DNA of 34,672 bases, taken from Nitrospira sp. CG24C. Lineage in GTDB: Bacteria; Nitrospirota; Nitrospiria; Nitrospirales; Nitrospiraceae. The notes beneath the pieces are model-generated. The model made no database searches and had not been told where the DNA came from. It saw nothing but the letters and a program-made list of their open reading frames with translations. How positions within the stretch are numbered: position 1 is the first letter of the stretch; each line of letters opens with the position of its first letter. The stretch spans positions 541,681 to 576,352 of the forward strand of contig NEWR02000009.1 in the NCBI GenBank assembly GCA_002869885.2. The letters run 5' to 3'. The position numbers and the translations under genes are program-made. Below, one piece after another: positions 4,935-34,493 of this stretch.

Positions 4935-5115
4935 TAGCAGGATGCTCAAAAAGGCCGTTCTCGTCGAGCATGGCTCGTCGGGTTGATCGGTTTGTTTTGT
5001 TTATTTGGTTGATTTGGATCGTCTGGTAAGTGTCGCTCAACCAAACAAACGAAACAAACCCAATAAACCAACTAACGGTTTTCTTACGCTGGCGGACTTT
5101 TTCAGCATCCTGCTA
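4935..5115. mobile_element. MITE-like palindromic element, TAGCAGGATGCT ends
   Basis: The 181-base element begins TAGCAGGATGCT and ends AGCATCCTGCTA, giving perfect 12-base terminal inverted repeats, followed inward by A-rich/T-rich arms. Its centre holds a low-complexity fold-back of TTTGTTTGGTT units facing AACCAAACAAACG (about 4985-5075). It carries no gene. Its last three bases, CTA, are the stop codon of the metzincin gene that ends at 5113. Copies or partial copies with the same terminal sequence lie at 6290-6374 and 13992-14198. Confidence 0.65.
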
Positions 5116-6141
5116 CAATTTTCGCACCTTGATCGAATACTTCCCTATCCCGCTCTGACGGCTATAGTGACGAACCTGTACAAAATACTCGCCAGCGATC
5201 AAGTCTCCAGCGATCCTGGCGTTGGTATCGAGTCCGGAATCGTCATCTTCTGCAATCAATGACGTCTCGCTGTTCGGCCCGAAGAGCTTCATGACCACAT
5301 CCGTCTCGCCCCTGGTGTCAATCACATATCGTCCGTCCACAGTTGCCCTAAACCGATACAGATCTTCTTCGCCGACCTTCCCGATCGACGCCTGCTTGCG
5401 GCGCTTGGGATTCACAAGTAACTCGACTGCATTAGAAGTCGTGCCACCCGCCTTCGGATACATTTTGGCTCCGGCGACGAAGGCCTTGTCCATCGCAGAA
5501 AGAACCTCATTCGCTTTTGTACCGATACCGTTGAGCGTCCAGGAAGCAGGAAAGAAGTAGAGCATGATCGAATCCGGATCGAACGAAGTTCCATTGATCT
5601 GAGCGGCGGTATATTTTCGAAGAATGTTGTGGCGTGTCGTCTCCTCATCCCAGAAGTTCGGCGATTTGGCCGCTTCGCGAATCACCACTGCTTCGTTCCA
5701 TTGGATTCCGCCCGCAGGGTTTTGATGTTCATGGGCCAATCCAATAGCGTGGCCAAACTCATGGCCCGCAGTCCCTCCATCGAGAAACCCTAGGTTCATG
5801 GTCGGTTCGTCCAATGGGATGCTACGGCCATCGGTGCCGACGTAGGACCAGGCCCCGTCGTTGTGATCGAACGCAATGCGAATCTCGGCATTCAACGCGT
5901 TGTTGAAATCGAATTTTAGATTTGCCACCTGGGCCCACCATCCAGCCTGTTGCTTGGCGATGGCTTGTTCGGTTGCGGTGCCTCCCATAAACCGCACTCT
6001 GAGCGTCGAGCCATTCATCCAGGTCTTCCCGATGGGAGCGATTGCACGCCTCCCGCCGTCGCGCATCGGTTTGGTAAGCTGAAGCCGCATAAGATCTCGA
6101 GGCAAGATCCGGTCGATACATAGCTTAGGCTGGTTGTCCAT
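5113..6141 (-). CDS. Metzincin-type zinc metalloprotease with C-terminal PPC-like domain
   Basis: This is a 342-residue protease of the metzincin clan. The zinc motif HEFGHAIGLAHEH at 127-139 provides three His ligands (127, 131, 137) and the catalytic Glu128, and a Met-turn, SIMLY, follows at 191-195. The HExxHxxGxxHE form is closest to astacin/matrixin-like proteases. The C-terminal 100 residues (about 245-342) look like a pre-peptidase C-terminal beta-sandwich (EEDLYRFRA, DDDSG, AGEYFVQV). There is no signal peptide, propeptide or membrane segment, which is unusual for this clan. Start ATG at 6141 follows AGGATGAG. The stop codon is the terminal TAG of an adjacent palindromic element. Substrate unknown. 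Confidence 0.85.
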   Translation of the reverse strand: MDNQPKLCIDRILPRDLMRLQLTKPMRDGGRRAIAPIGKTWMNGSTLRVRFMGGTATEQAIAKQQAGWWAQVANLKFDFNNALNAEIRIAFDHNDGAWSYVGTDGRSIPLDEPTMNLGFLDGGTAGHEFGHAIGLAHEHQNPAGGIQWNEAVVIREAAKSPNFWDEETTRHNILRKYTAAQINGTSFDPDSIMLYFFPASWTLNGIGTKANEVLSAMDKAFVAGAKMYPKAGGTTSNAVELLVNPKRRKQASIGKVGEEDLYRFRATVDGRYVIDTRGETDVVMKLFGPNSETSLIAEDDDSGLDTNARIAGDLIAGEYFVQVRHYSRQSGIGKYSIKVRKL

Positions 6142-6205
6142 TTCTCATCCTCCTTTGCTAAAAGGGTCTTCGCGCGCCCTCACCCAGATCTTGTCGTGGC
6201 CCTCA

Positions 6206-6288
6206 GTGATCCTCCCCCGAGATAGTGGACACCTCGAAAAGGGTGGGGCATGCTCACCCAGGAGGTGGTCAACATGGGGCAAAGACGA
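6206..6288 (+). mobile_element. Solo left end of an IS3-family element (83-bp remnant)
   Basis: These 83 bases are identical to 21838-21920, the left end of the intact IS3-family element in this window. The match includes the terminal GTGATCC, the ribosome site and the first codons of orfA (MGQRR). After 6288 identity stops abruptly and a palindromic repeat begins, so this is a deletion remnant. Perfect identity suggests recent activity of this IS in the genome. Confidence 0.85.
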
Positions 6289-6289
6289 A

Positions 6290-6374
6290 AGAGGCGAGGC
6301 GTACGCTTCGGTACGTTGAGCCTCTGAGCGATGCGAGAACGATGCTGGCGGACTTTTTCAGCCTCCTGCGGCTA
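6290..6374. repeat. Right end of the TAGCAGG-type palindromic element
   Basis: This stretch closely matches the reverse complement of the start of the element at 13992-14198, sharing the run GCGATGCGAGAACG and then GCTGGCGGACTTT. It ends CCTGCGGCTA, whose CTA is the stop codon of the FadL fragment beginning at 6372. Its left part has been replaced by the IS remnant. Confidence 0.6.
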
Positions 6375-6890
6375 AAACAGGAATTTGACGCTGACCGTCC
6401 CTAGATGGATATAGGCATGGTATGTCCCGTTGACGGTGGGATTCAGATTTCCGGTAACCGTCCGCGGCTCATAAAACCATTCCTGAAATGCCACATCGAG
6501 TCCGATTCCCTTGGGCCAGAGCGCGGAGGTTCCTCCGCAAGGTACTAATCCTAGAAACCGGCCCTGGCCCTTGCACAGAAATCCGGCCCCCAGGGACAGC
6601 GTGTTGGAAGATAAAGACACGATTGCCGGATTGAACGTCATGTCAGGAACGGGATCCTCGGTGCGCGTGTACCCTGATCGCACCGCCACATTCCAATCAG
6701 GTAACCACGCGGGGTTGAGCCATTTGTATTCGGTTCCGACCGCCACGACCGGCACGGTCTTCCATTGTTGCGGTTGCGGGATGATTCCGCCGGAGGAGAG
6801 GTGGATGTCGAGGTCGCGATTCGATTTCCATCCCAGCCCCTCGATTCCGCTTCGCTTCAATGAACCAAGTCGACACCTCGTTACGTCCAT
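6372..6890 (-). pseudogene. 3' remnant of an OmpP1/FadL-family outer-membrane porin gene
   Basis: The deduced 172 residues align from about residue 19 to the end with the C-terminal third of the intact porin at 8364-9725. Shared stretches include GWKS, LDHLS-type, GTEYKWL, FLGLxPCGG and GTY. The product would lack the signal peptide, the N-terminal hatch and most of the barrel strands. The final residues KFLF fit the C-terminal aromatic rule for outer-membrane proteins. The first 18 residues do not match and are probably not coding. It is best read as the leftover of a second porin copy; the sequence between the copies is now occupied by the CapA-family gene. Confidence 0.8.
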
Positions 6891-6892
6891 AA

Positions 6893-6922
6893 TTGACAGC
6901 TCACTGTACCTTCAGTTAGAAG
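6893..6922 (+). promoter_or_regulatory. Candidate sigma-70 promoter for the CapA-family gene
   Basis: TTGACA at 6893-6898 is followed after 18 bases by TAGAAG at 6917-6922 (four of six matches to the -10 consensus). It lies about 100 bases before the ATG at 7024. Candidate only. Confidence 0.3.
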
Positions 6923-7023
6923 TGGCTTCTCCCCTGTGTATTCTTAATCGTGACGATATTCTGACTGGCAAGACCAATGAATCTTTTCCGTATTGTCCGA
7001 TGGGTTACCGCTGAAGGACACGC

Positions 7024-8367
7024 ATGTCTCAAGATTTAGCAGCGACACCCGCAGATGCGGTTCAAACTTCCGGGGTGCTTCGATTTTTCCTGCGGGCCGT
7101 GTGCAAGTCGGCGGAGATTTGTAAATATTGGGGTCGGCCGTTCACGAGAGCCGCAACCGCATTCGAGGAAATGACGTTGCTGGACAAGATATACTGGGTC
7201 TACAAGTGCGCACACCCGATCATTCGTCCGGAGCGCGGCACCGCCGTCGGCGCCCTGTGTGGCGCCGACAACATGATCCAATTGCCGGAAGACTTCGAAA
7301 CGGAGCGCTCCATCAGCCTCGCCGCGGTGGGGGATTTGATACCGAGCGACGGGCTTGAACAGTCCAAAGATGTGTTGTACGAGCATGTCGCCGACCTGAT
7401 CTTCGACCGAACAATTTCCTACGCGAGCCTCGAAGCTCCGCTCACCGACCAGGAACGGAAAGCAGAGGTGATCAGCGAGAAGGAAAGCCCGATCGAGTGT
7501 TGTTCTCGGGAGCAGTTCGACGTCATGAAAGGTCACAACGGCAAGTGCCTGACGGTCATCCACACGGCCTCCAATCACATGTTCGACATGGGCGCAGAGG
7601 GCGTGCACACGACGCTCGATCAGTTCGCGCAGGACGGCATTGTCGACATCGGCACGAATCGGGAACCATCACAATATGGCAAGGGGAGGATCCTGGAAAG
7701 GAACGGGATCAAGGTCGGATTCATTTCCGCAGCATTCGGGCTGAACGGCAGGAATCCGGCGCCGGACCAGGCGTACCTGATCCATGTTGCGAAACTGCTC
7801 CCGAAGCGGGGCCCCTCCGATCTGTCACTGCTGAAACGGCAGATCGATCATTGCCGGGAGCAACGATGCGATGTGATCATCGCGTCCCTGCATTGGGGCT
7901 ACGAATTCGAATTCTTTCCGCGCCTACGACAGATCGACATCGCGCATACCTTGATCGAATGGGGGGTCGATGCGCTGATTGCCCATCATCCCCATGTCAT
8001 CCAGCCGGTGGAATATTACCGAACACAACGTGACCCGGATCGGGTTGCGGTGATTGCGTACTCGCTCGGAAGCCTGCTCTGGTCGTATACCGCGCCGCAC
8101 CTCGCGTTGAGCGCCATTCTGAACCTGTCGTTCGCCAAGGGAACGTATCGAGGCAAGCCGAAGACTTTGATCCAAAGCGCATCAGTCACGCCGGTCTTTC
8201 GTGCCCAAGTACGGGACGGCGACCGGACCCTGACCAGGATTGAGAGGCTGGATCGCTGCATGGGGACGCAGGACAACCACGAGAAGACGCAATACGTTGC
8301 CGAGATCCGGCGCTATGCCGAGCTGGCGCTTGGCGGCAAGCTGTCGGGAATGCACTCGCTGGATTAG
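7024..8367 (+). CDS. CapA-family (PGA_cap) metallophosphatase-like protein
   Basis: This 447-residue protein belongs to the CapA family, whose founder takes part in poly-gamma-glutamate capsule export. The fold is calcineurin-like. Visible motifs are AVGDLIPSDG (101-110), SLEAPL (135-140), TASNHMFDMG (181-190), SLHWGYEFE (288-296) and AHHPHVIQPVEYY (320-332). The first 95 residues are a poorly conserved extension without a signal peptide or membrane helix, so it may act in the cytoplasm. No capB/capC partners are nearby, so a role in polyglutamate synthesis is not supported here. It ends four bases inside the convergent porin gene. Family firm, function open. Confidence 0.87.
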   Translation: MSQDLAATPADAVQTSGVLRFFLRAVCKSAEICKYWGRPFTRAATAFEEMTLLDKIYWVYKCAHPIIRPERGTAVGALCGADNMIQLPEDFETERSISLAAVGDLIPSDGLEQSKDVLYEHVADLIFDRTISYASLEAPLTDQERKAEVISEKESPIECCSREQFDVMKGHNGKCLTVIHTASNHMFDMGAEGVHTTLDQFAQDGIVDIGTNREPSQYGKGRILERNGIKVGFISAAFGLNGRNPAPDQAYLIHVAKLLPKRGPSDLSLLKRQIDHCREQRCDVIIASLHWGYEFEFFPRLRQIDIAHTLIEWGVDALIAHHPHVIQPVEYYRTQRDPDRVAVIAYSLGSLLWSYTAPHLALSAILNLSFAKGTYRGKPKTLIQSASVTPVFRAQVRDGDRTLTRIERLDRCMGTQDNHEKTQYVAEIRRYAELALGGKLSGMHSLD

Positions 8368-9725
8368 AAGATCAGATTGAGGTTGAAGGTTCCCATGTGG
8401 GACCACAGTCGATAGGTCCCGTCGACGGTGGGATTTATATTGCCCATGACAGACCGATCTTCATGGATATACGAGAGATACGCAACAGAGGTTCCAATGG
8501 CCTTAGGGAAGTACCATTGGCCCTCGGCCCCTCCACAGGGAATGAGTCCAAGAAAATGACCACCTGGTCGACACAGGAGGCTAGTCCCAAGAGTCATACC
8601 ATGACTATTCAACGTGGCTGCAGCAGGAGTAAACGTACTGTCTGGGCCTGGATTTTCCGTGTAAGTATAGCCACCGCGCAGGGCAGCTTCCCAATTGGGC
8701 AGCACGTCCAGATGCAACCATTTGTATTCCGTCCCGAGCATGAAGACAGAGCTGTTGCGCCAGTTTTGTGGTTGAGGGAGCGTGCCGCCTGTCGATAAAT
8801 GAACATCGAGGGATCGGAATGATTTCCACCCGACATAGTCGACATCGAACTCGATCTTCCATTCGTGGTCGCGGTCCCGCACCGGCCAGAGAGCGACAGC
8901 AAGCGTAAATATTTGCGGAAGTGTGACGGGAATTCTGGTATCAGCCGCAAGGGCTCCGTTCACCAGAAATTGCCCTGTTAACTCCGTCCTGGCCTGACTT
9001 CTATATTGCAGGCCGACATTGACAAGCGGCTTCCCATCTTGGTTCCGGAACGGAGTGTACAGAAGACTCAAATTAAAACCCAGCGCCGTTCCGCTACCGT
9101 TGACTTCGACCGGCGTGCTGGCGGGAATGCCTCCGCCCCCAGGCCAGTTGAATTTTTGTTCGAGGTGGCCTTCCCCGATGAATCTGGCGAACGTATAAAT
9201 ATCCGCTCCCACACCGATGGAAAGTTGATCGTTTATTTGATACGCCACAGTGGGTTTAATGTCCAAGAGAGGGAGGGCGGCCGATGTGACAGCCGTTTGA
9301 AATGGGCCATCGAGAGGATAACGTGCCTGGAGCGCATACGGGGTCGTGAGCCCCAGACCAATGACGGTGTTGCCCACATGGCGGAATCCTAGGTCTCGAA
9401 GATTGGCCGTAAAGTACGATTGAGTTGGGGGAGGCCAGGCGATACTACCGCCGAAATCCCCTTGGGTGTTGACGCCGGCTGGACTCGTAAACTTGACGGA
9501 TCCTCCGACCAAGAATGTATTGAGTTGCATGTGGATGCCGGAAAGTTGGGTCATCCCGGCAGGGTTGTAATGAATGGCGGAGGCATCGTCTGCCTGAGCG
9601 GCAAAGGCGTTCCCCTGACCAGCCGCGGCAGCTCCTTGCGGTTGAAATCTAATCGCTTGGGCAGAAGTATACGAAGGGAGCAAGAGAATCACCATCAAGA
9701 TCAGCGAATATAAGACCCAGTTCAT
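8364..9725 (-). CDS. OmpP1/FadL-family outer-membrane transport protein
   Basis: This 453-residue protein is a FadL-type 14-stranded outer-membrane channel for hydrophobic compounds. It has a clear signal peptide (about 1-23, ending TSAQA). The typical hatch start follows, with FQPQGAAAAGQGNAFAAQADDASAIHYNPAG-type features; the NPAGMTQLSG motif is at about 55-64. The C-terminus ends NLIF, with a terminal Phe as expected for barrel assembly. Substrate is unknown; in the family it ranges from fatty acids to aromatic hydrocarbons. It starts divergently from luxR with 169 bases between them, and converges with the CapA-family gene. A truncated paralogue lies at 6372-6890. Confidence 0.88.
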   Translation of the reverse strand: MNWVLYSLILMVILLLPSYTSAQAIRFQPQGAAAAGQGNAFAAQADDASAIHYNPAGMTQLSGIHMQLNTFLVGGSVKFTSPAGVNTQGDFGGSIAWPPPTQSYFTANLRDLGFRHVGNTVIGLGLTTPYALQARYPLDGPFQTAVTSAALPLLDIKPTVAYQINDQLSIGVGADIYTFARFIGEGHLEQKFNWPGGGGIPASTPVEVNGSGTALGFNLSLLYTPFRNQDGKPLVNVGLQYRSQARTELTGQFLVNGALAADTRIPVTLPQIFTLAVALWPVRDRDHEWKIEFDVDYVGWKSFRSLDVHLSTGGTLPQPQNWRNSSVFMLGTEYKWLHLDVLPNWEAALRGGYTYTENPGPDSTFTPAAATLNSHGMTLGTSLLCRPGGHFLGLIPCGGAEGQWYFPKAIGTSVAYLSYIHEDRSVMGNINPTVDGTYRLWSHMGTFNLNLIF

Positions 9726-9894
9726 GTTTCCTTGCTCCCTTGAAGGTAAAAAATGTGTGATGTTAACGATAAACAGAGCATCCAGATAGAGCCATTTAGC
9801 TCCTCCGCAACAGAAAATTTTATATTTCTTCTTTTAAATTATCGGTGTACAATCCTCCTCCTAGATTCACCTGCACGTTCAAGCTGGATTTGTC

Positions 9895-10710: not shown

Positions 10711-10728
10711 TCGTCCCGCTAACGAATC

Positions 10729-12502: not shown

Positions 12503-13350
12503 GACACCCAGTTACTCGCCGCGGCACAGGTTCATCGTCTTACGCTCTCAGTCGAGGAGTAAGCGAGAGCAATAGGATCAAGGCTATCGGCTCTCCAAAG
12601 CCGATTCCTCGTCCAGGGTCCGTCGTGTCGGCTACCAATGTGGAAGAAGAACTCCGGCTGGCCTATGTTCGACTACGCGGCGAGGCTCGTCGGGTGCAGA
12701 GAGCTGCAGAAGAAGAGCGGCGCAGAATTGCACGGGAACTACATGACGAGTTTGGACAGGCCTTGACTGGCTTGAAGTTCGACCTGGCATGGCTCAGCAC
12801 GAAGTTGATGCAATCGCCCACTCCAACCAACTGTGGAGATCTGCTGAGCAAAGTCCAGGCTATGTCGGGATCGATCGATGGACTCATGGGGTTCGTTCGG
12901 GCGACAGCATCATCCCTGCGCTCCGCGATGCTGGATGATCTCGGGCTGATCCCGGCGTTGGAGAGCCTGGCCACGACATTCCAGCATCGAACGGGCGCTC
13001 GTTGCGAAATAGACGCGGCCCCTGAGTTGTTATCCATCATGCTGCCTTCCGAAGTGTCTGCCGCGCTATTTCGTATTGCGCAGGAATTACTGACGAATGT
13101 GATGCGTCACGCTGCCGCCTCGCAGGTTCGCATGCGGCTGTACCAGGACGGCGTCACGGTGACGTTAGAAGTGATTGACAACGGAAAGGGGATTACCATC
13201 AAGAGGATGAGCAGGCCTCATTCCTTTGGACTTCGAGGTATGCAGGAGCGGGCCTCTCTCCTGGGCGGCCACTTTCATATCGAAGGGGAGTCCGGAGTCG
13301 GAACCAGGGCCTACGCCTCCCTGCCGGTTACGGAGTACGTCGCCCCATGA
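12499..13350 (+). CDS. Soluble sensor-less histidine kinase (HisKA_3/HATPase_c), second of pair
   Basis: This 283-residue kinase has a coiled region (about 48-72) leading into RRRIARELHDEFGQAL with the phosphoacceptor His82. The ATPase domain has QELLTNVMRHAAA, DNGKGI and GLRGMQERASLLGG. No sensory or membrane domain is visible in the first 48 residues. It differs clearly from the preceding kinase and looks closer to the C-terminal half of the large PAS/GAF kinase at 18199. ATGA overlaps with both neighbours imply translational coupling of kinase, kinase and response regulator. The two kinases might form a heterodimer or feed one regulator with two inputs; this is inference. Confidence 0.88.
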   Translation: MRHPVTRRGTGSSSYALSRGVSESNRIKAIGSPKPIPRPGSVVSATNVEEELRLAYVRLRGEARRVQRAAEEERRRIARELHDEFGQALTGLKFDLAWLSTKLMQSPTPTNCGDLLSKVQAMSGSIDGLMGFVRATASSLRSAMLDDLGLIPALESLATTFQHRTGARCEIDAAPELLSIMLPSEVSAALFRIAQELLTNVMRHAAASQVRMRLYQDGVTVTLEVIDNGKGITIKRMSRPHSFGLRGMQERASLLGGHFHIEGESGVGTRAYASLPVTEYVAP

Positions 13351-13994
13351 TTGCGACGCAGCCGGTGAAAATTCTCGTCATCGACGATCACGAGGTCGTA
13401 CGCCGGGGTGTGAAACAGATCCTTGAGGAGAACTTCCTCCTGGTCGAAGTCGGTGAGGCCGATAGCGGGCAAAAAGGGATTGCTGCGGTGCGGCAGGAGC
13501 CTTGGGATCTGGTAATCCTGGATATCAACCTTCCCGACCAGAGTGGATTGGAGCTGCTGGGTGAGCTACACGGTACATGGCCCGGACTCCCACTGATGGT
13601 CTTGAGCCTGCATCCTGAGGAGCAATACGCTGTTCGTGTCTTCCGTGCAGGGGCCATGGCCTACCTCACCAAACAGACCGCACCGGAGGAGTTGGCCAAG
13701 GCCGTCAAGCAAGTTCTGAGTGGTCGTAGGTATGTCACCGCCTCCCTCGGAGAACATCTGGCCGGCAGCTTGAGCAAGAGTCCTGCCGGTCCCGTCCATC
13801 CCGCATTATCGGAGCGAGAACTTGAAGTTCTAGTATTAATAGCCCAAGGCCAGTCTCTCAAGAACATCGCGCAGTCTCTCATTCTCAGCGTCAAGACCGT
13901 CAGTACCTATCGAGGCCGTCTCCAGGATAAGCTGCAACTCACAACCACCGCCGAATTGATTCGCTATGCCATCGACCATCATTTGGTTGACTAG
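13347..13994 (+). CDS. NarL/FixJ-type response regulator
   Basis: This 215-residue regulator has a receiver domain with Asp13/Asp14, phosphoacceptor Asp59 (VILDINLPD) and Lys in the LTKQ loop, then a LuxR-type helix-turn-helix (about 148-208, ALSERELEVL, SVKTVSTYRGRLQDKL). It starts inside the stop of the second kinase (ATGA), so these kinases are its likely phosphodonors. Its stop codon TAG is the first base triplet of the adjacent palindromic element, yet the protein ends at the expected place (compare the regulator at 17564, which ends EQHLTH). Targets are unknown. Confidence 0.92.
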   Translation: MIATQPVKILVIDDHEVVRRGVKQILEENFLLVEVGEADSGQKGIAAVRQEPWDLVILDINLPDQSGLELLGELHGTWPGLPLMVLSLHPEEQYAVRVFRAGAMAYLTKQTAPEELAKAVKQVLSGRRYVTASLGEHLAGSLSKSPAGPVHPALSERELEVLVLIAQGQSLKNIAQSLILSVKTVSTYRGRLQDKLQLTTTAELIRYAIDHHLVD

Positions 13995-14198
13995 CAGACT
14001 GTTGATAAAGTCCGCCAGCGGCGTTCTCGCATCGTTCAGATCCTCAACGTACCCCAGAGGGTACGCTTCCGGTCTTCACTCGCTGCGGCCTTGCTGGACG
14101 GCCTTTCTGAACAGCCTGCGAAGAATTCTGAGAGAGTCTGTGGGCATTCATGTGCTCATGGTTTCGAGGTGCTCAAGTAGTTTGTCAACAACCTGCTA
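13992..14198. mobile_element. MITE-like palindromic element, TAGCAG...CTGCTA ends
   Basis: The 207-base element starts TAGCAGACTGTTGATAAA and ends TTTGTCAACAACCTGCTA, imperfect terminal inverted repeats of about 18 bases. CTAG occurs at both outer edges (13991-13994 and 14196-14199). The part near the left end matches the reverse complement of 6290-6369. An internal GTACCCCAGAGGGTAC hairpin is present (about 14050-14065). No gene is carried. The left TAG is the stop codon of the response regulator. Confidence 0.65.
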
Positions 14199-14218
14199 GG
14201 AAGTCTGTCTCGACATCC

Positions 14219-21200: not shown

Positions 21201-21864
21201 TGGCGCCAAGTGGCACGTCCATGCCGACCGTGAAACCGGTGCCAGGCGCACAGACATGGGTGAATTCAAGTTTCTCATCCACGGCTCGAGTGAGCATGCC
21301 GATCGGTAAACCGAACCGCCGACAACCGACCTCCAAGACTGCCTGCATTCGCTCATTGAAGGACAGTCCTACCGCTGCTGTCGCTTCGTGAAGGGCTCGT
21401 ATCACCTTCTCGCTCTCACGCAGCGCCTCTTCGGCCTGCTTGCGCTCGGTGATGTCATGGGTCACCGCCAGATGTTCCATGCTGCCGGTGACGGGATTCT
21501 GGAAGGGCACGGCATGGGTTTCCATCCACCTGCGGCCTCCCTTGAGACCTTGAATTTCGAACTGGAGGGTTCGCGAAGCTCCGTTGATCACGTCCTGATG
21601 CATGTTTATGAACACAGTACGATGCTCGGGGAGAACAAGATCGAACACCGAAAGGCCGATTGCTTCCTCCTCCCGGCAGGCTTCGATCATTGTCAGACCC
21701 GCCAGGTTCATGTGCAGCAAGGTGCCGTCGGCTGCGACGCGCTTGATGCAGCCGGGGCCCATGTTCATCATGAGTGTAATAAGCAATTCCTGCTTCGACC
21801 GTTCCTCCTCGGTCCGTTTGCGCTCCGTAATGTCAGTGTGATCCTCCCCCGAGATAGTGGACAC
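18199..21864 (-). CDS. Multi-PAS/GAF soluble histidine kinase, 5' end separated by an IS
   Basis: The remaining open frame encodes up to 1221 residues with no membrane segment. Approximate order: PAS 25-140, GAF 150-310, PAS 318-440, PAS 440-565, PAS 565-690, GAF 695-850, PAS 860-985, HisKA_3 with the phosphoacceptor His near 1003 (RRLSRELHDEVGQLL), and HATPase_c at about 1115-1205 (QELLTNVIRHAQA, DDGIGFD, GLRGIRERVEILGG). Repeated DITERK-type PAC endings mark the PAS units. The first ten codons now come from the IS end (a GTG at 21864), and the original start lies beyond the IS at 23150 or nearby. Expression now depends on a promoter reading out of the IS or an internal start. Everything downstream appears intact. 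Confidence 0.88.
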   Translation of the reverse strand: MSTISGEDHTDITERKRTEEERSKQELLITLMMNMGPGCIKRVAADGTLLHMNLAGLTMIEACREEEAIGLSVFDLVLPEHRTVFINMHQDVINGASRTLQFEIQGLKGGRRWMETHAVPFQNPVTGSMEHLAVTHDITERKQAEEALRESEKVIRALHEATAAVGLSFNERMQAVLEVGCRRFGLPIGMLTRAVDEKLEFTHVCAPGTGFTVGMDVPLGATYCNTTLQATGPVCFEHANVSEWRNHPGYKALGLEAYIGTKLIGRERVYGTICFTGQNPLPASFSQSDNDFIQLMARWISGELDRQMAEQALKQSEERYRALYDETPTMYFTLATDGMVRSVNRFGAKQLGYRADELVGQSVLGVFHEEDKEAVSTSLSECLATPEITRHWEFRKVRKDGSMMWVREVARVGQSSTGETVVLVTCEDVTERMRTEQALTFFRTLLDHIDDSIEIIDPQTGQFLDGNKGASSNIGYTRDEFLTLTVPDIDPLVTGPVFAGMMEQLRNTPNPMILDSLHRRKDGTTFPVEVSAQLIRLNKDYLVAVVRDSTERKRTEQALRLAKFSMDRAADAVYWIDAQAKILDVNEAASFMLGYSKDELCAMTVHDLNPDFPSDIWPGFWTETQQRGTMVLETAHRAKDGRLIPIEVSVNYLAYEGKEYHCAFVRDISLRKKAEAFAEGQRIVLDLIAKNAPLPDILSSLCLEIEKQSDGMLCSILLLEGVKLRHGAGPSLPDEYNHAIDGMTIGPSSGSCGTAAYTNETVVVGDIATDPFWADYKDLALRHGLKTCWSTPIHDAAGVVLGTFAVYYRTAATPSPAHMKLIDISVYLGGIAIERNLAEEALRSSEERFRLVTEATQDILWDWDLSTDTRWWSQNGQEKFDCDLNGMPDDKAWALRLHPDDRDGILALVQDALSSNLRMFSGEYRFRLANGSYGHFYDRAYILRDGSGKPTRVIGAMIDVTGAKQAYSSLQEAYRRLQAMANELQTVESNERRRLSRELHDEVGQLLTALKFDLESVRRKSLGKKKLTTTQVAERLTRALETTDLLFTRLRQIVRTLRPQVLEELGLKAALESLAADVQARTSLSCSVVIEGDDRQPGLSPTRETALYRIAQELLTNVIRHAQAKTASISLTLGPDHWILTVEDDGIGFDPTALPLTGGVGLRGIRERVEILGGRIDLTSQRGQGTLVAVWIPVVADPPLQTARKLTRVPSARPRRAKARS

Positions 21865-21905
21865 CTCGAAAAGGGTGGGGCATGCTCACCCAGGAGGTGG
21901 TCAAC

Positions 21906-22202
21906 ATGGGGCAAAGACGACGAGCCTTTACTCGGGAATTCAAGCAGGAGGCCGTGAAACTGGTGGCGGCAGGCGGACATCCCACCGCCCAGGTCGCTCG
22001 GGATCTCGGGATCACGCCGAATCTGTTGCGGCGTTGGAAGCAAGAGGCCGCCGGCGATCCGGTCGCCGCCTTCCCCGGCAAGGGACGGCGCAAGCCCCAC
22101 GAAGAGGAGCTCGCCCGACTTAAACGGGAGTTGGCCCGTGTGACGCAGGAGCGGGATTTTTTAAAAAGTGTGGCGGCGTACTTCGCCAAGCCGTCATCAT
22201 GA
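21906..22202 (+). CDS. IS3-family transposase OrfA (helix-turn-helix protein)
   Basis: This 98-residue protein carries the DNA-binding helix-turn-helix (about 8-45, RREFKQEAVKLV-like and QVARDLGITPNLLRRWKQE) and a leucine-rich coiled part (about 62-85) used for multimerisation. The ATG at 21906 is chosen because a perfect AGGAGGTG lies 7 bases before it, although the frame is open further upstream. It recognises the terminal repeats and is fused to OrfB by frameshifting. Confidence 0.9.
   Translation: MGQRRRAFTREFKQEAVKLVAAGGHPTAQVARDLGITPNLLRRWKQEAAGDPVAAFPGKGRRKPHEEELARLKRELARVTQERDFLKSVAAYFAKPSS
22160..22166 (+). promoter_or_regulatory. -1 programmed frameshift heptamer T TTA AAA
   Basis: In the orfA frame the bases read TTT TTA AAA, so T-TTA-AAA at 22160-22166 is a classical X-XXY-YYZ slippery site. 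The -1 frame is open from here through orfB, so slippage would give the OrfAB transposase. The ATGA overlap at 22199-22202 offers an independent restart for OrfB. Confidence 0.75.
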
Positions 22203-23062
22203 GGTGCCGAGCCATTCGTGCACATGTTGGCCGTGTTCCGGTGCGGCTAATGTGTCGCATCCTGGCGGTGTCACCATCGGGTTACTATGCGTGGGTGGCC
22301 CGGCCCGAGAGTCGCCGCGCGGCAGAGAATCGACGGCTGGTCGCCGAGATTCGAATCATCCACGCCGCGTCGCGAAAGACCTACGGCAGCCCCAGGGTCC
22401 ACGCGACCCTTCAGGCCCAGGGCAAGCAGATCGGTGAACACCGGGTAGCTCGGCTCATGCACGCGAATGCCATTCGTGCGAAGACGATTTCGAAGTGGCG
22501 GGCCACCACGGATTCGGCGCATCGGCATCCGGTCGTGCCGAACACGCTCAACCGTCAATTTACGGTGACCGCCCCCAACCGGGTGTGGGCCGGCGACATC
22601 ACGTATGTCTGGACCACCGAGGGCTGGCTCTATCTGGCGGTCGTGCTTGATCTCTACTCGCGTCGGGTCATTGCCTGGGGAATGGGGAGCCGCCTGACTC
22701 AGGAATTGGCCACGGCGGCACTCACCATGGCCGTGGAACACCGACGACCAGCGCACGGCGTGGTGCATCATACGGACCGCGGGTCTCAGTATGCCGCTAC
22801 CACCTACCGCGCATTGCTCGCCGAGCACGGCCTGACGGCGAGCATGAGTCGGCGCGGGAACTGCTGGGACAATGCCGTGGTGGAAAGCTTCTTCCATACG
22901 CTGAAAACGGAACACGTGCATCATCAGCGCTATCGGACCCGTGAGGAAGCCAGGCAGGACATTTTCGAATGGATCGAGGTATTCTACAATCGAGTCCGCC
23001 GCCATTCGACCCTCGGCTATCGTTCTCCCGCCGAGTTCGAAGCCATGGCGATGGAATCTTAA
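22199..23062 (+). CDS. IS3-family transposase OrfB (DDE integrase core)
   Basis: This 287-residue protein has the HTH_21-type N-terminal region (about 40-95) and the retroviral-integrase-like core. The catalytic triad is visible as Asp in WAGDITYV, Asp in HHTDRGSQY and Glu in NAVVESFF, with the CWDNA signature before the Glu. It ends RRHSTLGYRSPAEFE, typical of the family. All key residues are intact, so the element may be active. Confidence 0.95.
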   Translation: MRCRAIRAHVGRVPVRLMCRILAVSPSGYYAWVARPESRRAAENRRLVAEIRIIHAASRKTYGSPRVHATLQAQGKQIGEHRVARLMHANAIRAKTISKWRATTDSAHRHPVVPNTLNRQFTVTAPNRVWAGDITYVWTTEGWLYLAVVLDLYSRRVIAWGMGSRLTQELATAALTMAVEHRRPAHGVVHHTDRGSQYAATTYRALLAEHGLTASMSRRGNCWDNAVVESFFHTLKTEHVHHQRYRTREEARQDIFEWIEVFYNRVRRHSTLGYRSPAEFEAMAMES

Positions 23063-28443: not shown

Positions 28444-28445
28444 AA

Positions 28446-28520
28446 GAAGGTCTGTTTGGTCTGTCTGGTCTATCCGGTCTGTCTTGTTCACGAGATAGAC
28501 CAGACAGACCAGATAGACTG
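28446..28520. repeat. Inverted tract of GTCTGTCTG-like units
   Basis: Nine-base units of the form GGTCTGTCT repeat at about 28449-28488 and reappear in reverse complement (AGACCAGACAGACCAG) at about 28495-28518, giving a long imperfect fold-back. It resembles the TTTGTTTGG tract inside the element at 4935-5115. It lies just before a terminator. Confidence 0.6.
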
Positions 28521-28527
28521 CAAAACA

Positions 28528-28561
28528 AAAGAGCCCGATCCTGAAAAGGATCGGGCTCTTT
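28528..28561. terminator. Strong bidirectional rho-independent terminator
   Basis: A perfect 14-base stem (AAAGAGCCCGATCC / GGATCGGGCTCTTT) with loop TGAAAA, flanked by A-rich and T-rich tracts. It separates the small + strand gene from the oxidoreductase operon on the minus strand and should stop both transcripts. Confidence 0.9.
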
Positions 28562-28581
28562 ATTTTAGCTTCAAGACCTCG

Positions 28582-29937: not shown

Positions 29938-29994
29938 AGTGACACCTCTTCGCTATATCGCCCGTGCAGTTCGACCCTACTCAGCCTTCACGCT

Positions 29995-30144: not shown

Positions 30145-30169
30145 GGTGCTCCTTCGTGCTAAATCCTAG

Positions 30170-30883
30170 TTAGGCGCTTACGGTCGCACGGGCTTCCGAC
30201 CGTTTGACCGTTGTTGCAGCCCAACCGTGATCGACTGCGTAGTTCCAGCCGGCCTGTATCACCGCCACATTTTTATCGATCAACTCTTGCTTCTTCTTGA
30301 ATTTCCGCTCAACGACACTGTCTAAGGCCGCGGTTCCACCGGAGACGACAAATCCCTTGCCAAGGAACCGGTCCTTCACCGACTGCTCCAGCGCCTCAAC
30401 CGAAGTCAGTCCCGTGATCGCTCCGATGCAACCCATCAAGGCCATGTTCGTCGCCAGATCCATCCCTGCGACTTCGAGGGACAGTTTGGTGGCGGGGAAA
30501 TAGTAGAGCTTCGCACGGCGCTCATCCAACTCACGCTGTTGATCCCTATGAAGGCTCATGGGCCCATCATGGTTGATCAGTGCAATCCCATCTTCCTTCA
30601 ATCCGAAGTAGAACGGCATCGTATAGGACTTGCCGTGGGTGATGACCTGGGGATGGAAGATAATGATGATGTGAGGGAAAGTAATTTCCCCGATTTCATA
30701 GATCGGTTCATCTGACACACGGACGTAGCTCTCGACCGGCGCCATCCGTTTTTCCGACCCATAAAATGGGACGATCGTGCTTTCACCGCCGGCATGGATC
30801 ACTGCGGTGCTCAGAATGTGTGACCCTGTCACAACACCCTGACCGCCGACCCCTGCCATTCGTATGTTAAAGCGCTTTGCCAT
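30170..30883 (-). CDS. 2-oxoacid:ferredoxin oxidoreductase, gamma subunit
   Basis: This 237-residue protein has the gamma-subunit fold, with the nucleotide-like loop GVGGQGVVTGSHILSTAV at about 11-28 and PFYGSEKRMAPVESYVRVS at about 39-57. It forms the CoA-binding region of the complex in known enzymes. It lies 23 bases after beta and 25 bases before the 49-residue ferredoxin-like gene, all on the minus strand, clearly one operon. Confidence 0.92.
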   Translation of the reverse strand: MAKRFNIRMAGVGGQGVVTGSHILSTAVIHAGGESTIVPFYGSEKRMAPVESYVRVSDEPIYEIGEITFPHIIIIFHPQVITHGKSYTMPFYFGLKEDGIALINHDGPMSLHRDQQRELDERRAKLYYFPATKLSLEVAGMDLATNMALMGCIGAITGLTSVEALEQSVKDRFLGKGFVVSGGTAALDSVVERKFKKKQELIDKNVAVIQAGWNYAVDHGWAATTVKRSEARATVSA

Positions 30884-30906
30884 ATCCGAATCTCCCTCCG
30901 AATCGT

Positions 30907-31809
30907 TTACGCCTTGGTTGGAATTGCTGCGGCAGGAGCAGCCGCCTTCGGAAGATAGTCCTTATAGCCATACCGCTCAGTCAGATACTGCTTGGCTTCA
31001 TCACTCACATATTCCGTGAATTGATACCGGTCATTCTCAACGGTCTTTGCGTCTTCCATCACCTTGTCGGTGGGAATCGCGTACTCGATGTTGCAGGAGG
31101 TATAGGCTTGAATGTAGGTCGAGCCCACTTCGCGGGCAATCAGCACAGCCTTCTTGATGACGCTCTCGACGCGGCGGGGATTGTTCGGAACCACCGTCGC
31201 CACATAGGCGCACCCGGCTACCTTTGCCATTTGCAACATGTCCATCTTCTCAAACTTCTTCCCCAACGGAGCCATCTTCAAGACGGCGCCACGGTTGGTC
31301 ATGCCGCTCTCCTGCCCCCCGGTGTTGCCGTACACTTCATTGTCCAGCATGATCGTGGTGAATCGTTCCTTTCGGAACCAGGAGTGGAGCACTTGCTGGA
31401 AACCGATATCCGCAGTTCCGCCGTCCCCCGCCATGACGACCACATCTTTCGGCTTGTCACCGAACCGCAGCCGCAGCCCACGGGACAGTCCGCTCGCGAC
31501 ACCGTTCTGATCGCCATAGTTGCCGTACACAAACGGAATCGCAGCCTGTGAAATCGCCAACCGTCCACAGCCTGCCGTGCCAACAGTAATCGTATCTTCC
31601 GGGTTGGGGAAGGCAATGATCGCCAGCCGGATGAACAGCGTCATCGCGCAGCCGGCGCACATCGGATGCTCTTCAAGAATTTCCTTGAAGCTTCCCATTT
31701 GGGAGACCGAAATTTTCTTTCCAAACGGGCCATGTTCAACCATGTCCCGATATTCTTTAGGCATGAACTTTTCAAATCCACCGGAAAATTTTACATAATC
31801 AAGACTCAT
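30907..31809 (-). CDS. 2-oxoacid:ferredoxin oxidoreductase, beta subunit (TPP-binding)
   Basis: This 300-residue beta subunit binds thiamine diphosphate and a [4Fe-4S] cluster. The cluster Cys are probably 51 and 54 (CAGC), 81 (AGCGR) and 239 (YTSCN). The TPP motif runs from GDGG at 128 to Asn157 (LDNEVYGNTGGQ). The ATG at 31809 is supported by GGAGGTG; an upstream start at 31866 is less likely. It is the first gene of the operon: beta, gamma, ferredoxin-like, alpha. The separate two-cluster ferredoxin (delta) subunit found in five-subunit enzymes is not in this operon. The C-terminal tail is Ala/Pro-rich. Confidence 0.93.
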   Translation of the reverse strand: MSLDYVKFSGGFEKFMPKEYRDMVEHGPFGKKISVSQMGSFKEILEEHPMCAGCAMTLFIRLAIIAFPNPEDTITVGTAGCGRLAISQAAIPFVYGNYGDQNGVASGLSRGLRLRFGDKPKDVVVMAGDGGTADIGFQQVLHSWFRKERFTTIMLDNEVYGNTGGQESGMTNRGAVLKMAPLGKKFEKMDMLQMAKVAGCAYVATVVPNNPRRVESVIKKAVLIAREVGSTYIQAYTSCNIEYAIPTDKVMEDAKTVENDRYQFTEYVSDEAKQYLTERYGYKDYLPKAAAPAAAIPTKA

Positions 31810-32214
31810 CGGAACACCTCCCTCTATCGCGGCAACGGCAATCCATTGCCTGTCGGAAAGATACAACTATTTGCAACAGCGTAGGAATTCGAGACTGAAC
31901 GAACCGGACTGAATACCCACTCAGGGAGGGGGCATGGTAACAAAGCCTAAAAAAGACTGTCAATGAGAAACGTCTATAACATCCTCGAACAGTGCACGAA
32001 CCGGGGTAATAATATAACTTCCTGATAATCAACGCAACTTTTCAGAAGGCCCACCATGCTAAAAAGAAGACCTAGCCTAGTCCTGGCCTGTAGGCCATTC
32101 GCCCTAACCGCTTACATTTCGCCCTGTTTCCACACCAGCCGAAAAGGCGACTGATTTCACAGAATTGGAAAGAGACATTGCTGATTCCGTAAAACCTGTC
32201 TAGACTAGACTCCT
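31810..32214. other. Gene-free divergent promoter region
   Basis: About 400 bases between the oxidoreductase operon (minus) and the MTHFR_C-type gene (plus). Apart from the promoter at 31934-31963 I see no gene, repeat or clear second promoter. Confidence 0.5.
31934..31963 (-). promoter_or_regulatory. Candidate sigma-70 promoter of the oxidoreductase operon
   Basis: On the minus strand TTGACA (31963-31958) and TACCAT (31939-31934) are spaced by 18 bases. The leader to the beta-subunit ATG would be about 115 bases. The -35 is a perfect consensus; the -10 matches at four of six positions. Confidence 0.5.
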
Positions 32215-32463
32215 ATGTCAACACGCGTAATCATCCTTGGGGAAGACGAAGGCGCTCAACAGGCCGGTGGAGTCCATAAGCGCCCTCCGATTCCGGATAG
32301 TTCGCTCAAAGCCGAGTGCCCGAAATTCATGAGCCACGGCCCTTGCGGAGGCGTCCGAAAGGGGGGGCTGTGTGAAGTGTACCCGGAAATGGCCTGTCCC
32401 TGGGTGACGCTCTACATTCAATTGGAAAAAATCGGCCAAGTCGAGTGGATGAAACAAGTCTAG
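32215..32463 (+). CDS. MTHFR_C-type small cysteine protein
   Basis: This 82-residue protein matches the methylene-tetrahydrofolate reductase C-terminal domain family (MTHFR_C), often a stand-alone partner or fused to MetF/MetV. Cys35, 44, 53 and 61 lie in CPKFMSHGPCGG, GLCEVYP and ACPWV and probably bind a metal or Fe-S cluster. It ends YIQLEKIGQ. No MetF gene is adjacent, so the partner is elsewhere. The queF start lies 38 bases downstream. Confidence 0.82.
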   Translation: MSTRVIILGEDEGAQQAGGVHKRPPIPDSSLKAECPKFMSHGPCGGVRKGGLCEVYPEMACPWVTLYIQLEKIGQVEWMKQV

Positions 32464-32469
32464 GAAGAC

Positions 32470-32517
32470 GTGAGGGGTGCTGAAGACGTGAAAGGTGAAA
32501 CGTGAAACGTGAAACGC
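32470..32517 (+). repeat. Tandem GTGAAAC heptamers overlapping the queF start
   Basis: GTGAAAC-type units repeat three to four times at period 7 (32495-32516), preceded by related ACGTGA copies. The queF start codon GTG at 32502 lies inside the array. The 14-mer at 32483-32496 is the reverse complement of 4038-4051. Confidence 0.7.
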
Positions 32518-32918
32518 TAGGGAAGAAACCCGGGAGCACCAAGCTCGGATACAACGAGCGGCATGCAAAGAGCGGGATTACCGACCCCTTGCCGGGCATC
32601 GAAACATTTCCGAACCAATACAAGGGCTACGAAATCACCATCGAGATCCCGGAATATACCGCGATTTGCCCGAAAACTGGCCTCCCGGACTTCGGCATCA
32701 TCACACTGCACTACATGCCGGACAAAGAATGCCTAGAGCTGAAGTCGTTGAAGATGTACCTCCATGAGTACAGAAACCTCGGTATCTTTTATGAAAACGC
32801 AGTCAACCGAATTTTACACGACATCGTGAAAGCCTGCCGCCCCGTCTGGGCCAAAGTGACCGGCACCTTCGCCGCCCGTGGCGGGCTCCGTAGCATCATT
32901 GAAGCGAAATACCCTTAA
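32502..32918 (+). CDS. queF: NADPH-dependent preQ0 (7-cyano-7-deazaguanine) reductase
   Basis: This 138-residue enzyme reduces preQ0 to preQ1 in queuosine biosynthesis. It is the short, single-domain type. The catalytic Cys56 is in EYTAICPKTGLPDFG, with Asp63 as acid and the substrate-binding ELKSLKMYLHEYRN motif at about 78-91. The start is GTG at 32502, within a heptamer repeat; AAGGTG lies close upstream and may serve as ribosome site. No preQ1 riboswitch-like structure or other que gene is adjacent. Confidence 0.93.
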   Translation: MKRETLGKKPGSTKLGYNERHAKSGITDPLPGIETFPNQYKGYEITIEIPEYTAICPKTGLPDFGIITLHYMPDKECLELKSLKMYLHEYRNLGIFYENAVNRILHDIVKACRPVWAKVTGTFAARGGLRSIIEAKYP

Positions 32919-32963
32919 GCCTCTTCCGTCATTGAGGCCCCGAAGCCTGATAAATTCCCACTC

Positions 32964-33779
32964 ATGGCCACCTACGCAATCGGCGACATTCAAGGCTGCC
33001 TTGCTTCCTTCCGACAACTTCTGGACCGGATTGCTTTCACTCCCGGCTCCGACAGACTTTGGCTGGTTGGAGACCTTGTCAACCGAGGCCCCAACTCTTT
33101 GGGTACTCTCCGGTTCATCAAGAATCTTGGCACATCCGTTCGCCTCGTCTTGGGAAACCATGATCTGTTTTTGCTGGCAACAGCTGAAGGCGTCACGACG
33201 CTTCGGCCCAAAGATACGATCCAGGACATACTTTCCGCCTCCGATCGTGCCGATCTCATCGATTGGCTGAGGCGCCAGCCGCTTCATCATCGCGAAGGAT
33301 CGTTCCTCATGGTCCATGCCGGCATCCTGCCACAATGGACCATTGAAGAGGCAGCGGCTCTGGCGCATGAAGTAGAGACCCTACTGCGCGGACCAGAGTA
33401 TCGAACCTTTCTTCAAGCGCTCTTTCATGGGCCGGCCCCGCAATGGAACTCCTCGCTCAAGGGACTCGAACGTCTCGTGAGCATCACCCGTGTATTGACC
33501 AGACTCCGAACCTGTACGCCAACCGGTGAGATGTCGAGCTTTTCAGGTTCTCCAGACGAAACTCCCGTCGGCTTCACTCCCTGGTTTCGCATTCCCGGTC
33601 GGCGCAATACCGGCGCGACAATCATCACAGGCCATTGGGCGGCACTCGGGCTGCACCTGGAACCCCATCTGCTTGCCATCGATAGCGGATGCATATGGGG
33701 CAGGCAACTGACGGCTGTTCGGCTGGAAGACCGCTCCGTTTTTCAGGTCGATTGCGCGGATAAACCACGCCGTGACTGA
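32964..33779 (+). CDS. apaH: Symmetrical bis(5'-nucleosyl)-tetraphosphatase
   Basis: This 271-residue enzyme hydrolyses Ap4A to two ADP. Metal-binding metallophosphatase motifs are GDIQGC (7-12), GDLVNRGP (36-43) and GNHD (64-67), with later HAG (about 118) and TGHWAALG (about 217). Length matches the family. It starts 46 bases after queF and overlaps the DUF309 gene by 8 bases, so the three may share a transcript. Confidence 0.95.
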   Translation: MATYAIGDIQGCLASFRQLLDRIAFTPGSDRLWLVGDLVNRGPNSLGTLRFIKNLGTSVRLVLGNHDLFLLATAEGVTTLRPKDTIQDILSASDRADLIDWLRRQPLHHREGSFLMVHAGILPQWTIEEAAALAHEVETLLRGPEYRTFLQALFHGPAPQWNSSLKGLERLVSITRVLTRLRTCTPTGEMSSFSGSPDETPVGFTPWFRIPGRRNTGATIITGHWAALGLHLEPHLLAIDSGCIWGRQLTAVRLEDRSVFQVDCADKPRRD

Positions 33780-34287
33780 GCCTCACCCCTCTGATACTTC
33801 CTGGCCTCGCTACTCCGCACGTCCCTTCCCCGTTTACCGTTTCGTGCCTGGTAAAAATCCTCATCCACGCCGTGATCCACACGGCCACTCCTACGGCAAA
33901 CCCGAGCCTGCGCCATCGGCATTTCCACCTGAGGCATGGAAGAAATCAGACGACTACCTGTATGGGATCGACCTCTACAACTTTGCCTACTGGTGGGAAT
34001 GCCACGAAGTCTTCGAAGGGCTCTGGCATGCAGTTGGTCACGACACCGAACAAGGGAACTTCTTCCAAGCCCTCATCCAGTTCGCCGCCGCCAACCTCAA
34101 GCAGTTCCTCGGCAACCACCAGGCAGCGGGAAAACTACTGACCAGCGGCATGATTCGTTTGCAGAAAATACCCAGGTTCTATATGGGGATTTATGTGGCC
34201 GACCTCAACGAAAACTTGCGTCGGCACGTGGCCGATTCGGACTTTCGCGCACCGCTCATTCGCCTGCATGAGCAGAATCTCATGTAG
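33772..34287 (+). CDS. DUF309-family protein
   Basis: This 171-residue protein has the DUF309 signature YWWECHEVFEGLWHAVGHD (73-91, with Glu76, His78, Glu79 and Trp85) and the following QGNFFQALIQFAAANLKQFLGN region. The family fold is helical and its function is unknown. The N-terminal 60 residues are Pro/His-rich and variable. The start is GTG at 33772, overlapping the end of apaH by 8 bases, which suggests translational coupling. Confidence 0.85.
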   Translation: MTEPHPSDTSWPRYSARPFPVYRFVPGKNPHPRRDPHGHSYGKPEPAPSAFPPEAWKKSDDYLYGIDLYNFAYWWECHEVFEGLWHAVGHDTEQGNFFQALIQFAAANLKQFLGNHQAAGKLLTSGMIRLQKIPRFYMGIYVADLNENLRRHVADSDFRAPLIRLHEQNLM

Positions 34288-34299
34288 AACTTCGCCTAC

Positions 34300-34493
34300 T
34301 AGCCCGCATTATTCATGAACACTTCTGCTGCAATCGCGGATTCGCTGCTGCGACAAGCCTTCGGCTGGCAGGCTCGCCGTTCGCTCCCTCGACGTACTGT
34401 TCAAGTACGCCTCGGGCTCTCACGGCTCCGCATGCCCGTCTCACGACGCGACTGCGCGATTTCGCAACGAACCGTCATGAATAATGCGGGCTA
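34300..34493. mobile_element. MITE-like element with 19-bp perfect terminal inverted repeats
   Basis: The 194-base element begins TAGCCCGCATTATTCATGA and ends with its exact complement. The interior is an imperfect palindrome with a central GTAC-type hairpin and no gene. If the target was TA, the flanking TA pair would be the duplication. Its terminal CTA at 34491-34493 is the stop codon of panB. A 23-base match to one inner end lies at 4885-4907. Confidence 0.75.

Follow-up and report, generated by a model that had tools for sequence, protein, structure and literature searches.

Elements next to gene ends

The window is a stretch of 34,672 nt from Nitrospira sp. CG24C (NEWR02000009.1). The original prediction placed palindromic elements against the TAG stop codons of four genes in it, and the stop coordinates were confirmed at all four sites when the window was re-read. 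The stop lies exactly at the element end in the metzincin, NarL-type regulator and panB genes; at the FadL fragment it lies near it.

The metzincin gene (5113-6141, minus strand) ends with its stop at 5113-5115, and CAGGATGCTGAAAAAG follows immediately on the 3' side. The junction reads GTAG (5113-5116, minus strand). The sequence beyond it is a type-A element (4938-5112, minus strand; ends read directly), a foldback whose core consists of TTTGG repeats. Its foldback end abuts the metzincin stop, and its far end adjoins TTAG at 4934-4937. A partial type-B end (4884-4910, plus strand) lies near this element, away from any stop. The NarL-type regulator gene (13347-13994) has its stop at 13992-13994, within the left target copy CTAG (13991-13994, plus strand). 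The type-A element immediately 3' of it (13995-14195, plus strand) has both ends, CAGACTGTTGATAAAG on the left and, on the right, CAGGTTGTTGACAAAC on the minus strand, which differs by one base from the ends of the IS in locus L266; the right target copy CTAG follows at 14196-14199 (plus strand).

The panB stop (34491-34493, minus strand) is followed immediately on its 3' side by CCCGCATTATTCATGA. This belongs to a type-B element (34303-34490, plus strand) with CCCGCATTATTCATGA ends of probable IS1380 type, placed between the left target copy CTAG (34299-34302, plus strand) and the right target copy CTAA (34491-34494; TTAG on the minus strand), whose TAG is the panB stop. panB is broken by an assembly gap just past the window, and its last 58 codons and stop are readable in this copy. 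At the FadL fragment (6372-6890, minus strand), the stop TAG (6372-6374, minus strand) is followed by CCG and then by the CAGG of the element, which is only a half type-A copy (6300-6368, minus strand; inner limit 6300 approximate) fused to an IS remnant as its other half. Because CCG intervenes and the element is a half copy, this site was rated near rather than exact. In a by-eye comparison the fragment was short on its 5' side and ended like the full FadL gene (8364-9725), so its 3' end looks intact.

Element families and related transposases

The elements are MITE-like and belong to two unrelated families, type A and type B, in one Nitrospira genome, with lengths from about 125 to over 250 bp. 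Type-A ends are common to IS5-family elements, and type-B ends appear to match an IS1380-family element. Of 23 loci fetched from the genus, 6 (L261, L264, L266, L268, L276 and L281) have type-A-like ends on both sides of a DUF772 transposase gene. L261 and L264 carry CAGGCTGCGGAAAAAC at both ends, so type A shares its ends with an IS5-family transposon. The transposases of L261 and L281 pass the NCBIfam IS5 model, and that of L266 falls below both cut-offs (136 vs 140 for IS5, 235 vs 270 for IS1182).

The transposase of locus L252 passes the NCBIfam IS1380 model and is adjoined by a type-B end on one side only; type B itself is non-coding. Single type-B ends were found in 2 further loci of the 9 fetched, and no IS1380 transposase with type-B ends on both sides was seen in these 9 loci (one intact gene, with one end). 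The home genome gave no match to the two transposase families, DUF772 included, and mobilisation by the transposases of relatives is for this reason only inferred. From the shared ends, IS5- and IS1380-family transposases presumably move type A and type B, respectively.

Insertion target and duplication

The terminal TAG lies outside the element and belongs to a copy of a 4-bp YTAR target duplication. On transposase-bearing relatives of the IS5-type element, YTAR stands before 126 of the 133 ends that were found. Of 57 transposase-bearing copies with two ends, 41 are flanked by the same 4-mer left and right, and these matches include the asymmetric pairs TTAG and CTAA. Because asymmetric copies such as TTAG match on both sides, the TAG was assigned to the target; thus the elements adjoin TAG but do not themselves end in it. 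A 2-bp TA duplication, as in IS630, was rejected on the same identity of asymmetric 4-mers.

Among the type-A MITEs, TTAG/TTAG and CTAG/CTAG pairs occur, and identical flanking 4-mers were counted in only 7 of 61 copies (mean 3.6 after shuffling; 4% of shuffles reached 7), a loose set that takes in copies without a true right end; the 4-bp YTAR duplication of type A is supported by the 41 of 57 transposase-bearing copies and the MITE pairs. In type B, identical 4-mers were found in 10 of 31 pairs (mean 6.0 after shuffling; 1.8% of shuffles reached 10), including TTAG/TTAG, CTAA/CTAA and TTAA/TTAA, and these pairs together with an empty panB copy give type B a 4-bp target duplication as well. 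Several type-A stop junctions read GTAG or ATAG rather than YTAR, which calls for either mutation after insertion or a less strict target. In the related genome G021, 1220 of 1566 YTAR sites lie inside genes, and 91 of the remaining 346 (26%) are stop codons.

IS5 of Escherichia coli likewise produces a 4-bp Py-T-A-Pu duplication, CTAG being the most frequent (PMC5493358). It differs in carrying its own transposase, and the available parts of PMC5493358 and PMC11677980 describe no stop-codon preference for it.

Occupied and empty orthologous sites

Where a TAG or TAA stop is the target and is copied on insertion, the gene keeps its stop and C-terminus. Occupied and empty orthologues agreed with this. 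The C-termini of accC, tgt and purF were mostly unchanged between the two. The empty tgt site reads GAC-TAA-CCCTG, and the occupied one reads GAC-TAG, then the element from CAGG to CCTG, then CTAACCCTG. The same genome has another panB copy, and its site is empty. In element-free orthologues the stop was often TGA or TAA and the C-terminus mostly the same; of the counter-case named in the original prediction, different stops together with different C-termini, the first part was thus often seen and the second mostly not.

In the orthologue table, a type-A end stood behind 37 of 84 TAG or TAA stops compared to 1 of 21 TGA stops. This table enters L199 as a foldback end although its next bases are a tail end, L183 as TGA owing to a frameshift (the usual position is TAG without an element), and L167 accC and other near misses as empty. 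Occupancy was patchy across the genus. A type-A end follows panB in 11 of 26 relatives, where the home genome has type B, and tgt carries both element orientations, in different species.

Stop-codon excess and its orientation

The genome contains 149 matches to the type-A end pattern. Retrieval was guided by 100 listed of these 149 half-sites and by all 73 type-B places; ends with more than 3 mismatches or within 300 bases of a stretch end were dropped, leaving 178 of 239. A first gene caller, based on codon usage, performed poorly and left genes out. A hexamer-based one improved on it, with called stops coinciding exactly with 32 of 93 type-A ends and 11 of 85 type-B ends, yet it chose the wrong strand at panB. 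The main counts therefore rest on a frame test, which needs no gene calls: for ends preceded by TAR, at least 100 open codons upstream were required, and the TAG frame was compared with the two other frames. Among 41 stop contexts, 17 were ++, 15 were +-, and the calls for the other 9 reveal errors of the gene caller; convergent gene pairs were not clearly enriched.

In the part of the genome that was fetched, the TAG frame was open at 32 of 62 type-A foldback ends, against 2 and 1 for the other frames; in other genomes it was open at 28 of 38 (2 and 4). Two other-genome sets, which share one locus, gave 13/19 and 16/20. Binomial tests against 0.26 yielded P = 2e-5 (32/62), 1e-4 (13/19) and 7e-7 (16/20). 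The type-A tail end was in frame in 5 of 25 cases in the fetched part of the genome (other frames, 1 and 3) and in 0 of 7 in other genomes, and the foldback and tail ends differed (Fisher P = 0.008). Type B gave 12 of 56 in the fetched part of the genome (6 and 3). Among transposase-bearing IS5-type relatives, 17 of 129 TAR ends were in frame (22 and 10), in a sample that spans many phyla, with only ten from Nitrospira or Nitrospirae records; of the 80 loci behind it, L425 and L431 share the same beginning, and the L264 and L261 copies recur as L390 and L394.

The excess is thus strong for the type-A foldback end, with little or none in the tail end, type B or transposase-bearing relatives. 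Chance alone was rejected by this test. The claim that four coincidences in four exceed chance holds for the type-A foldback end and not clearly for type B, and genome-wide enrichment at TAG stops is present in type A only. Part of the coincidence is built in, because the insertion target is itself YTAR.

Structure of the type-A foldback

The type-A foldback has a GC stem and a T run. Strong covariation among 46 foldbacks (17 of 32 pairs changed on both sides; 80 cells, compared to a shuffled mean of 19.8 and maximum of 29) shows that the palindrome is maintained, with figures that are inflated by related copies and fit an RNA or a DNA function alike. Mean arm pairs were similar at stops and elsewhere (20.3 in 31 copies, 20.6 in 16 and 21.0 in 21). 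As hairpin quality is equal elsewhere, selection for a terminator at stops has left no visible mark on the hairpin. The window had no Rfam match at gathering thresholds, and 52 tails aligned and inspected by eye contained no convincing promoter. When the inner arm was sought as a possible alternative end, most of the hits were the left ends again; by eye, 2 of 40 TAR rows were inner arms, neither on a stop.

Origin of the elements at stop codons

These results suggest that two MITE families, probably moved by IS5-family (type A) and IS1380-family (type B) transposases, duplicate a 4-bp YTAR target on insertion. Where TAR is a stop codon, one of the two copies remains the stop and the other lies beyond the element, leaving the product unchanged, as the orthologues show. 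The majority of YTAR sites lie inside genes, where insertions would be eliminated, and roughly one in four of the remaining sites is a stop. The excess of type-A copies with the foldback on the stop most likely reflects selection after insertion, because transposase-bearing relatives lack the bias; the hairpin directly behind the stop may serve as the 3' end, or the opposite orientation may be harmful. More tentatively, the type-A MITE may act across the genus as a portable gene 3' end, spreading by YTAR insertion, with foldback-first copies on stop codons being kept and the hairpin terminating or protecting the transcript. Retention at stops, as originally proposed, thus fits the oriented excess of type A and not type B. 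A dense genome could in this way be filled by a mobile element without gene breakage, through a stop-containing target tetranucleotide that is copied on insertion. An oriented excess in the MITE that is absent from transposase-bearing relatives allows insertion preference to be told apart from selection at a later stage, and stops that carry an element in one related species and none in another offer many natural replicates for testing whether mobile hairpins turn into gene 3' ends.

An alternative is that the type-A complex reads a stop context beyond YTAR, such as a terminating ribosome or transcript end, in fixed orientation. The oriented excess, the repeated use of one stop (panB and tgt) and the two transposase-bearing copies that do sit on stops (L266 and L281) are consistent with such targeting. 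We consider it unlikely, because the ends of transposase-bearing relatives lack the in-frame excess and the tail ends of the same MITEs show at most a weak one. The transposase itself apparently has no preference for stop codons, and of the proposed specific, harmless insertion at TAG stops the harmlessness is retained, the target being YTAR.

Pure tolerance, in which copies survive only where genes are unbroken and stops are merely common tolerated YTAR sites, was already disfavoured and is more doubtful still. The share of stops in G021 agrees with it, and type B and the type-A tail ends lie near half of 26% per end. However, all three foldback fractions exceed 0.26, and tolerance predicts no orientation, contrary to the difference between foldback and tail ends.

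It is very improbable that the element carries its own TAG, truncates genes and replaces their true 3' ends: its ends bear TAG and CTA in inverted order, but element-free orthologues mostly stop at the same residue and asymmetric target copies place the TAG in the target, and the orthologue comparison ruled out truncation for accC, tgt, purF and panB.

Comparison with known repeats

BOX and GTAG-tagged REP elements are published precedents for repeat-supplied stop codons. BOX encodes the stop codon of 36 pneumococcal genes, with no strong evidence of truncation, and SPRITE repeats near pneumococcal gene 3' ends were proposed to be co-opted terminators (PMC3049150). Both resemble the Nitrospira elements as small interspersed repeats at gene 3' ends and differ in sequence and host; BOX is said to encode the stop itself, whereas in Nitrospira the target duplication contains it. 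In the portion of PMC3049150 consulted, end orientation is not compared between the repeats and transposase-bearing copies.

GTAG-tagged REPs are palindromes of 20-40 bp with the tag at one end, often found with Y1 transposase genes, and ORFs beside them often take their stop codon from the TAG end (PMC3733652). The Nitrospira elements share the palindrome and the TAG at a gene stop, but their size, 4-bp duplications and DDE-type ends set them apart, and none of 30 fetched Y1 loci had elements on both sides of the gene; they were not placed among these REPs. The reading of the elements as REP-type palindromes moved by a tyrosine (Y1) transposase is very improbable: hairpins with a TAG-bearing end and one Y1 match in the home genome would agree with it, but the duplications and the ends shared with DDE transposon families argue against it, as do element ends near Y1 genes at 7 of the 30 loci (type A 6, type B 1) and the 13 of 32 genomes with no Y1 match, all of which carry type-A half-sites (121 in G001).

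Insertion of the elements at stop codons

The repeats found behind stop codons belong to two unrelated MITE-like families, with ends like those of the IS5 family (type A) and the IS1380 family (type B). Type A comprises a foldback of ~125 nt, whose core is often variable, and complete copies add a tail of ~75 nt; the left end is CAGGATGCTGAAAAAG and the right end CAGGCTGCGGAAAAACT. The original prediction regarded TAG as the terminal part of the element, but asymmetric 4-mers repeated at both flanks revealed that TAG is instead the target. The 4-mers before element ends were mainly CTAG, TTAG, CTAA, ATAG, and TTAA, and single copies carried TTAG/TTAG (types A and B) or CTAA/CTAA (type B). Flanking 4-mers were identical in 10 of 31 type-B pairs (shuffled mean, 6.0) and in 7 of 61 type-A pairs of a loose set (shuffled mean, 3.6). 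Duplication of the YTAR target was clearest in 80 relatives of the IS5-type transposase, where YTAR preceded 126 of the 133 ends found and the same 4-mer stood on either flank of 41 of 57 two-ended copies. IS5 of E. coli is described in an excerpt of PMC5493358 as duplicating Py-T-A-Pu, with CTAG the commonest.

When the window was read directly, the expected direct contact between a stop and the terminus of a palindromic element at four genes was seen at three: the metzincin (5113-5115) and the NarL regulator (13992-13994), both with type A, and panB (34491-34493), with type B. At the FadL fragment (6372-6374), CCG separates the stop from the type-A element, which is a half copy.

Comparison of occupied and empty orthologous sites

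Orthologous genes bore out the proposal that insertion at a stop leaves the gene undamaged, as the stop and the C-terminus survive: occupied and empty orthologues of accC, tgt, and purF mostly share the last residue, with ends of tgt and purF shifted by a few residues in some orthologues. Empty relatives of tgt (e.g. L205) read GAC-TAA-CCCTG, and the occupied locus L199 reads GAC-TAG, then the element (CAGG...CCTG), then CTAACCCTG. A second panB copy in the home genome, past an assembly gap, represents the empty site for the type-B insertion. Across accC, tgt, purF, and panB, whose orthologues are non-independent and of which the first three were selected for their occupancy in the home genome, a type-A end directly followed the stop in 37 of 84 orthologues with TAG/TAA and in 1 of 21 with TGA, the latter including a frameshift case (L183) that should be counted as an empty TAG.

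On a 27-genome tree, at least 5 (accC), 4 (tgt), and 9 (purF) changes of state were required, gain and loss being indistinguishable. At tgt, three loci (L192, L197, L201) carry the element foldback-first and three others (L194, L198, L199) carry it tail-first, which points to separate insertions at a single stop. The panB stop, occupied by type B in the home genome, was followed by a type-A end in 11 of 26 relatives.

Two copies of panB, each with the end of the preceding gene, flank a 100-base N run (window 33772-34672; home contig C22, 576352-576958), reflecting either tandem duplication or misassembly. The panB-plus-type-B sequence also occurs at a contig start in another genome (G025, locus L388), identical over the part compared.

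Transposase-bearing relatives

A DUF772 transposase gene with type-A-like ends on either side was present in 6 of 23 fetched loci of relatives: L261 (651-1968), L264 (651-1969), L266 (966-2325), L276 (1277-2631), and L268 and L281, each with one end at the stretch edge. The transposases of L261 and L281 passed the NCBIfam IS5 model, and that of L266 scored under both cut-offs (IS5, 136 of 140 bits; IS1182, 235 of 270). Among named genomes, the closest relatives of the L264 transposase were Nitrospira records; together with the grouping of the home genome with its same-genus relatives, this suggests that the home genome belongs to Nitrospira. An IS1380-family transposase (L252) adjoins a type-B end on one side. 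PF05598 and PF13701 had no match in the home assembly, which is estimated to be 94% complete. The elements presumably move in trans via IS5-type and IS1380-type transposases.

Stop-codon excess at the foldback end

As a null, YTAR sites in 320 kb of a same-genus genome (G021) were sorted by called genes. Called genes contained 1220 of the 1566 sites, and 91 of the remaining 346 (26%) were stops, so a neutral end is expected at a stop in ~13% per orientation. We then counted ends preceded by a stretch of 100 or more open codons, for the TAG frame and the two other frames, respectively. In the part of the home genome covered, type-A foldback ends gave 32, 2, and 1 of 62, tail ends 5, 1, and 3 of 25 (3, 1, and 1 of 20 in a second, overlapping set from the home genome), and type B 12, 6, and 3 of 56. 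With a 60-codon limit, the counts were 42, 6, and 9 (foldback), 7, 3, and 5 (tail), and 17, 13, and 10 (type B). Foldback ends gave 13, 0, and 3 of 19 in 29 loci of relatives, some from other genera, and 16, 2, and 1 of 20 in 30 loci of four same-genus genomes (19, 2, and 2 of 35 including ends without TAR); pooled, with one locus common to both sets, they gave 28, 2, and 4 of 38. Tail ends in the 30 loci gave 0, 1, and 0 of 7.

In contrast to this oriented excess at one end, the ends of transposase-bearing relatives gave 17, 22, and 10 of 129, with no in-frame excess, indicating that the IS5-type transposase family as such does not choose in-frame stop codons. Two full copies within the genus lie on a stop (L266, L281), and stops are thus permitted as targets. 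Foldback-first copies have probably been retained by selection.

The foldback shows strong covariation and contains a GC-rich stem and, on either strand, a T run, so that a predicted role as a bidirectional terminator or transcript end is a natural guess. However, the hairpin is kept equally well at stops and elsewhere, and convergent gene pairs showed no clear enrichment.

Repeats supplying stop codons are already known. According to part of PMC3049150, BOX provides the stop in 36 pneumococcal genes, which show no strong sign of having been truncated, and SPRITE repeats located close to 3' ends are proposed co-opted terminators; part of PMC3733652 describes GTAG REPs as a frequent source of TAG stops. 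No description of these Nitrospira elements was found in the part of the open-licence literature surveyed. The oriented stop-codon excess in DDE-transposon MITEs, set against their transposase-bearing relatives, appears to be new.

Copy number, core variation, and other repeats

With up to 3 mismatches and the two strands summed, the home genome (3.0 Mb) contained 149 matches to the type-A end pattern, 73 to the type-B pattern, and none to a reversed control. The type-A pattern gave at least 44 matches in each of 31 same-genus relatives, except G021 (5) and G016 (12), and 0 to 22 in 29 other-genus genomes. Runs of N begin within type-A elements in several assemblies (L373, L171, L167, and others), so these numbers are probably lower bounds; the repeats may break assemblies.

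Type-A copies kept the terminal end and differed in the core (L001, L003, L016, L061; orthologue loci L201, L228), which contained GTTCTCGCATCG or GTGCTCGCGCAACGCGCG hairpins or TTTGGTTTGTTT or GTGAAACGTGAAACG repeats; core modules seem to have been swapped within a conserved frame. A GTGAAACGTGAAACG-type repeat resembling a core module of some type-A elements occurs in opposite orientations at window 4025-4051 and 32483-32509.

An identical 83-nt stretch occurs at window 6206-6288, beside the FadL fragment, and at 21838-21920, where it runs into ORFs 21882-22202 and 22199-23062; the copy beside the FadL fragment therefore appears to be left over from this mobile element. Of two adjacent inverted repeats at 28450-28518 and 28520-28569, one is of the TTTGG type and the other has a AGGATCGGGCTCTTT arm of terminator-like appearance.
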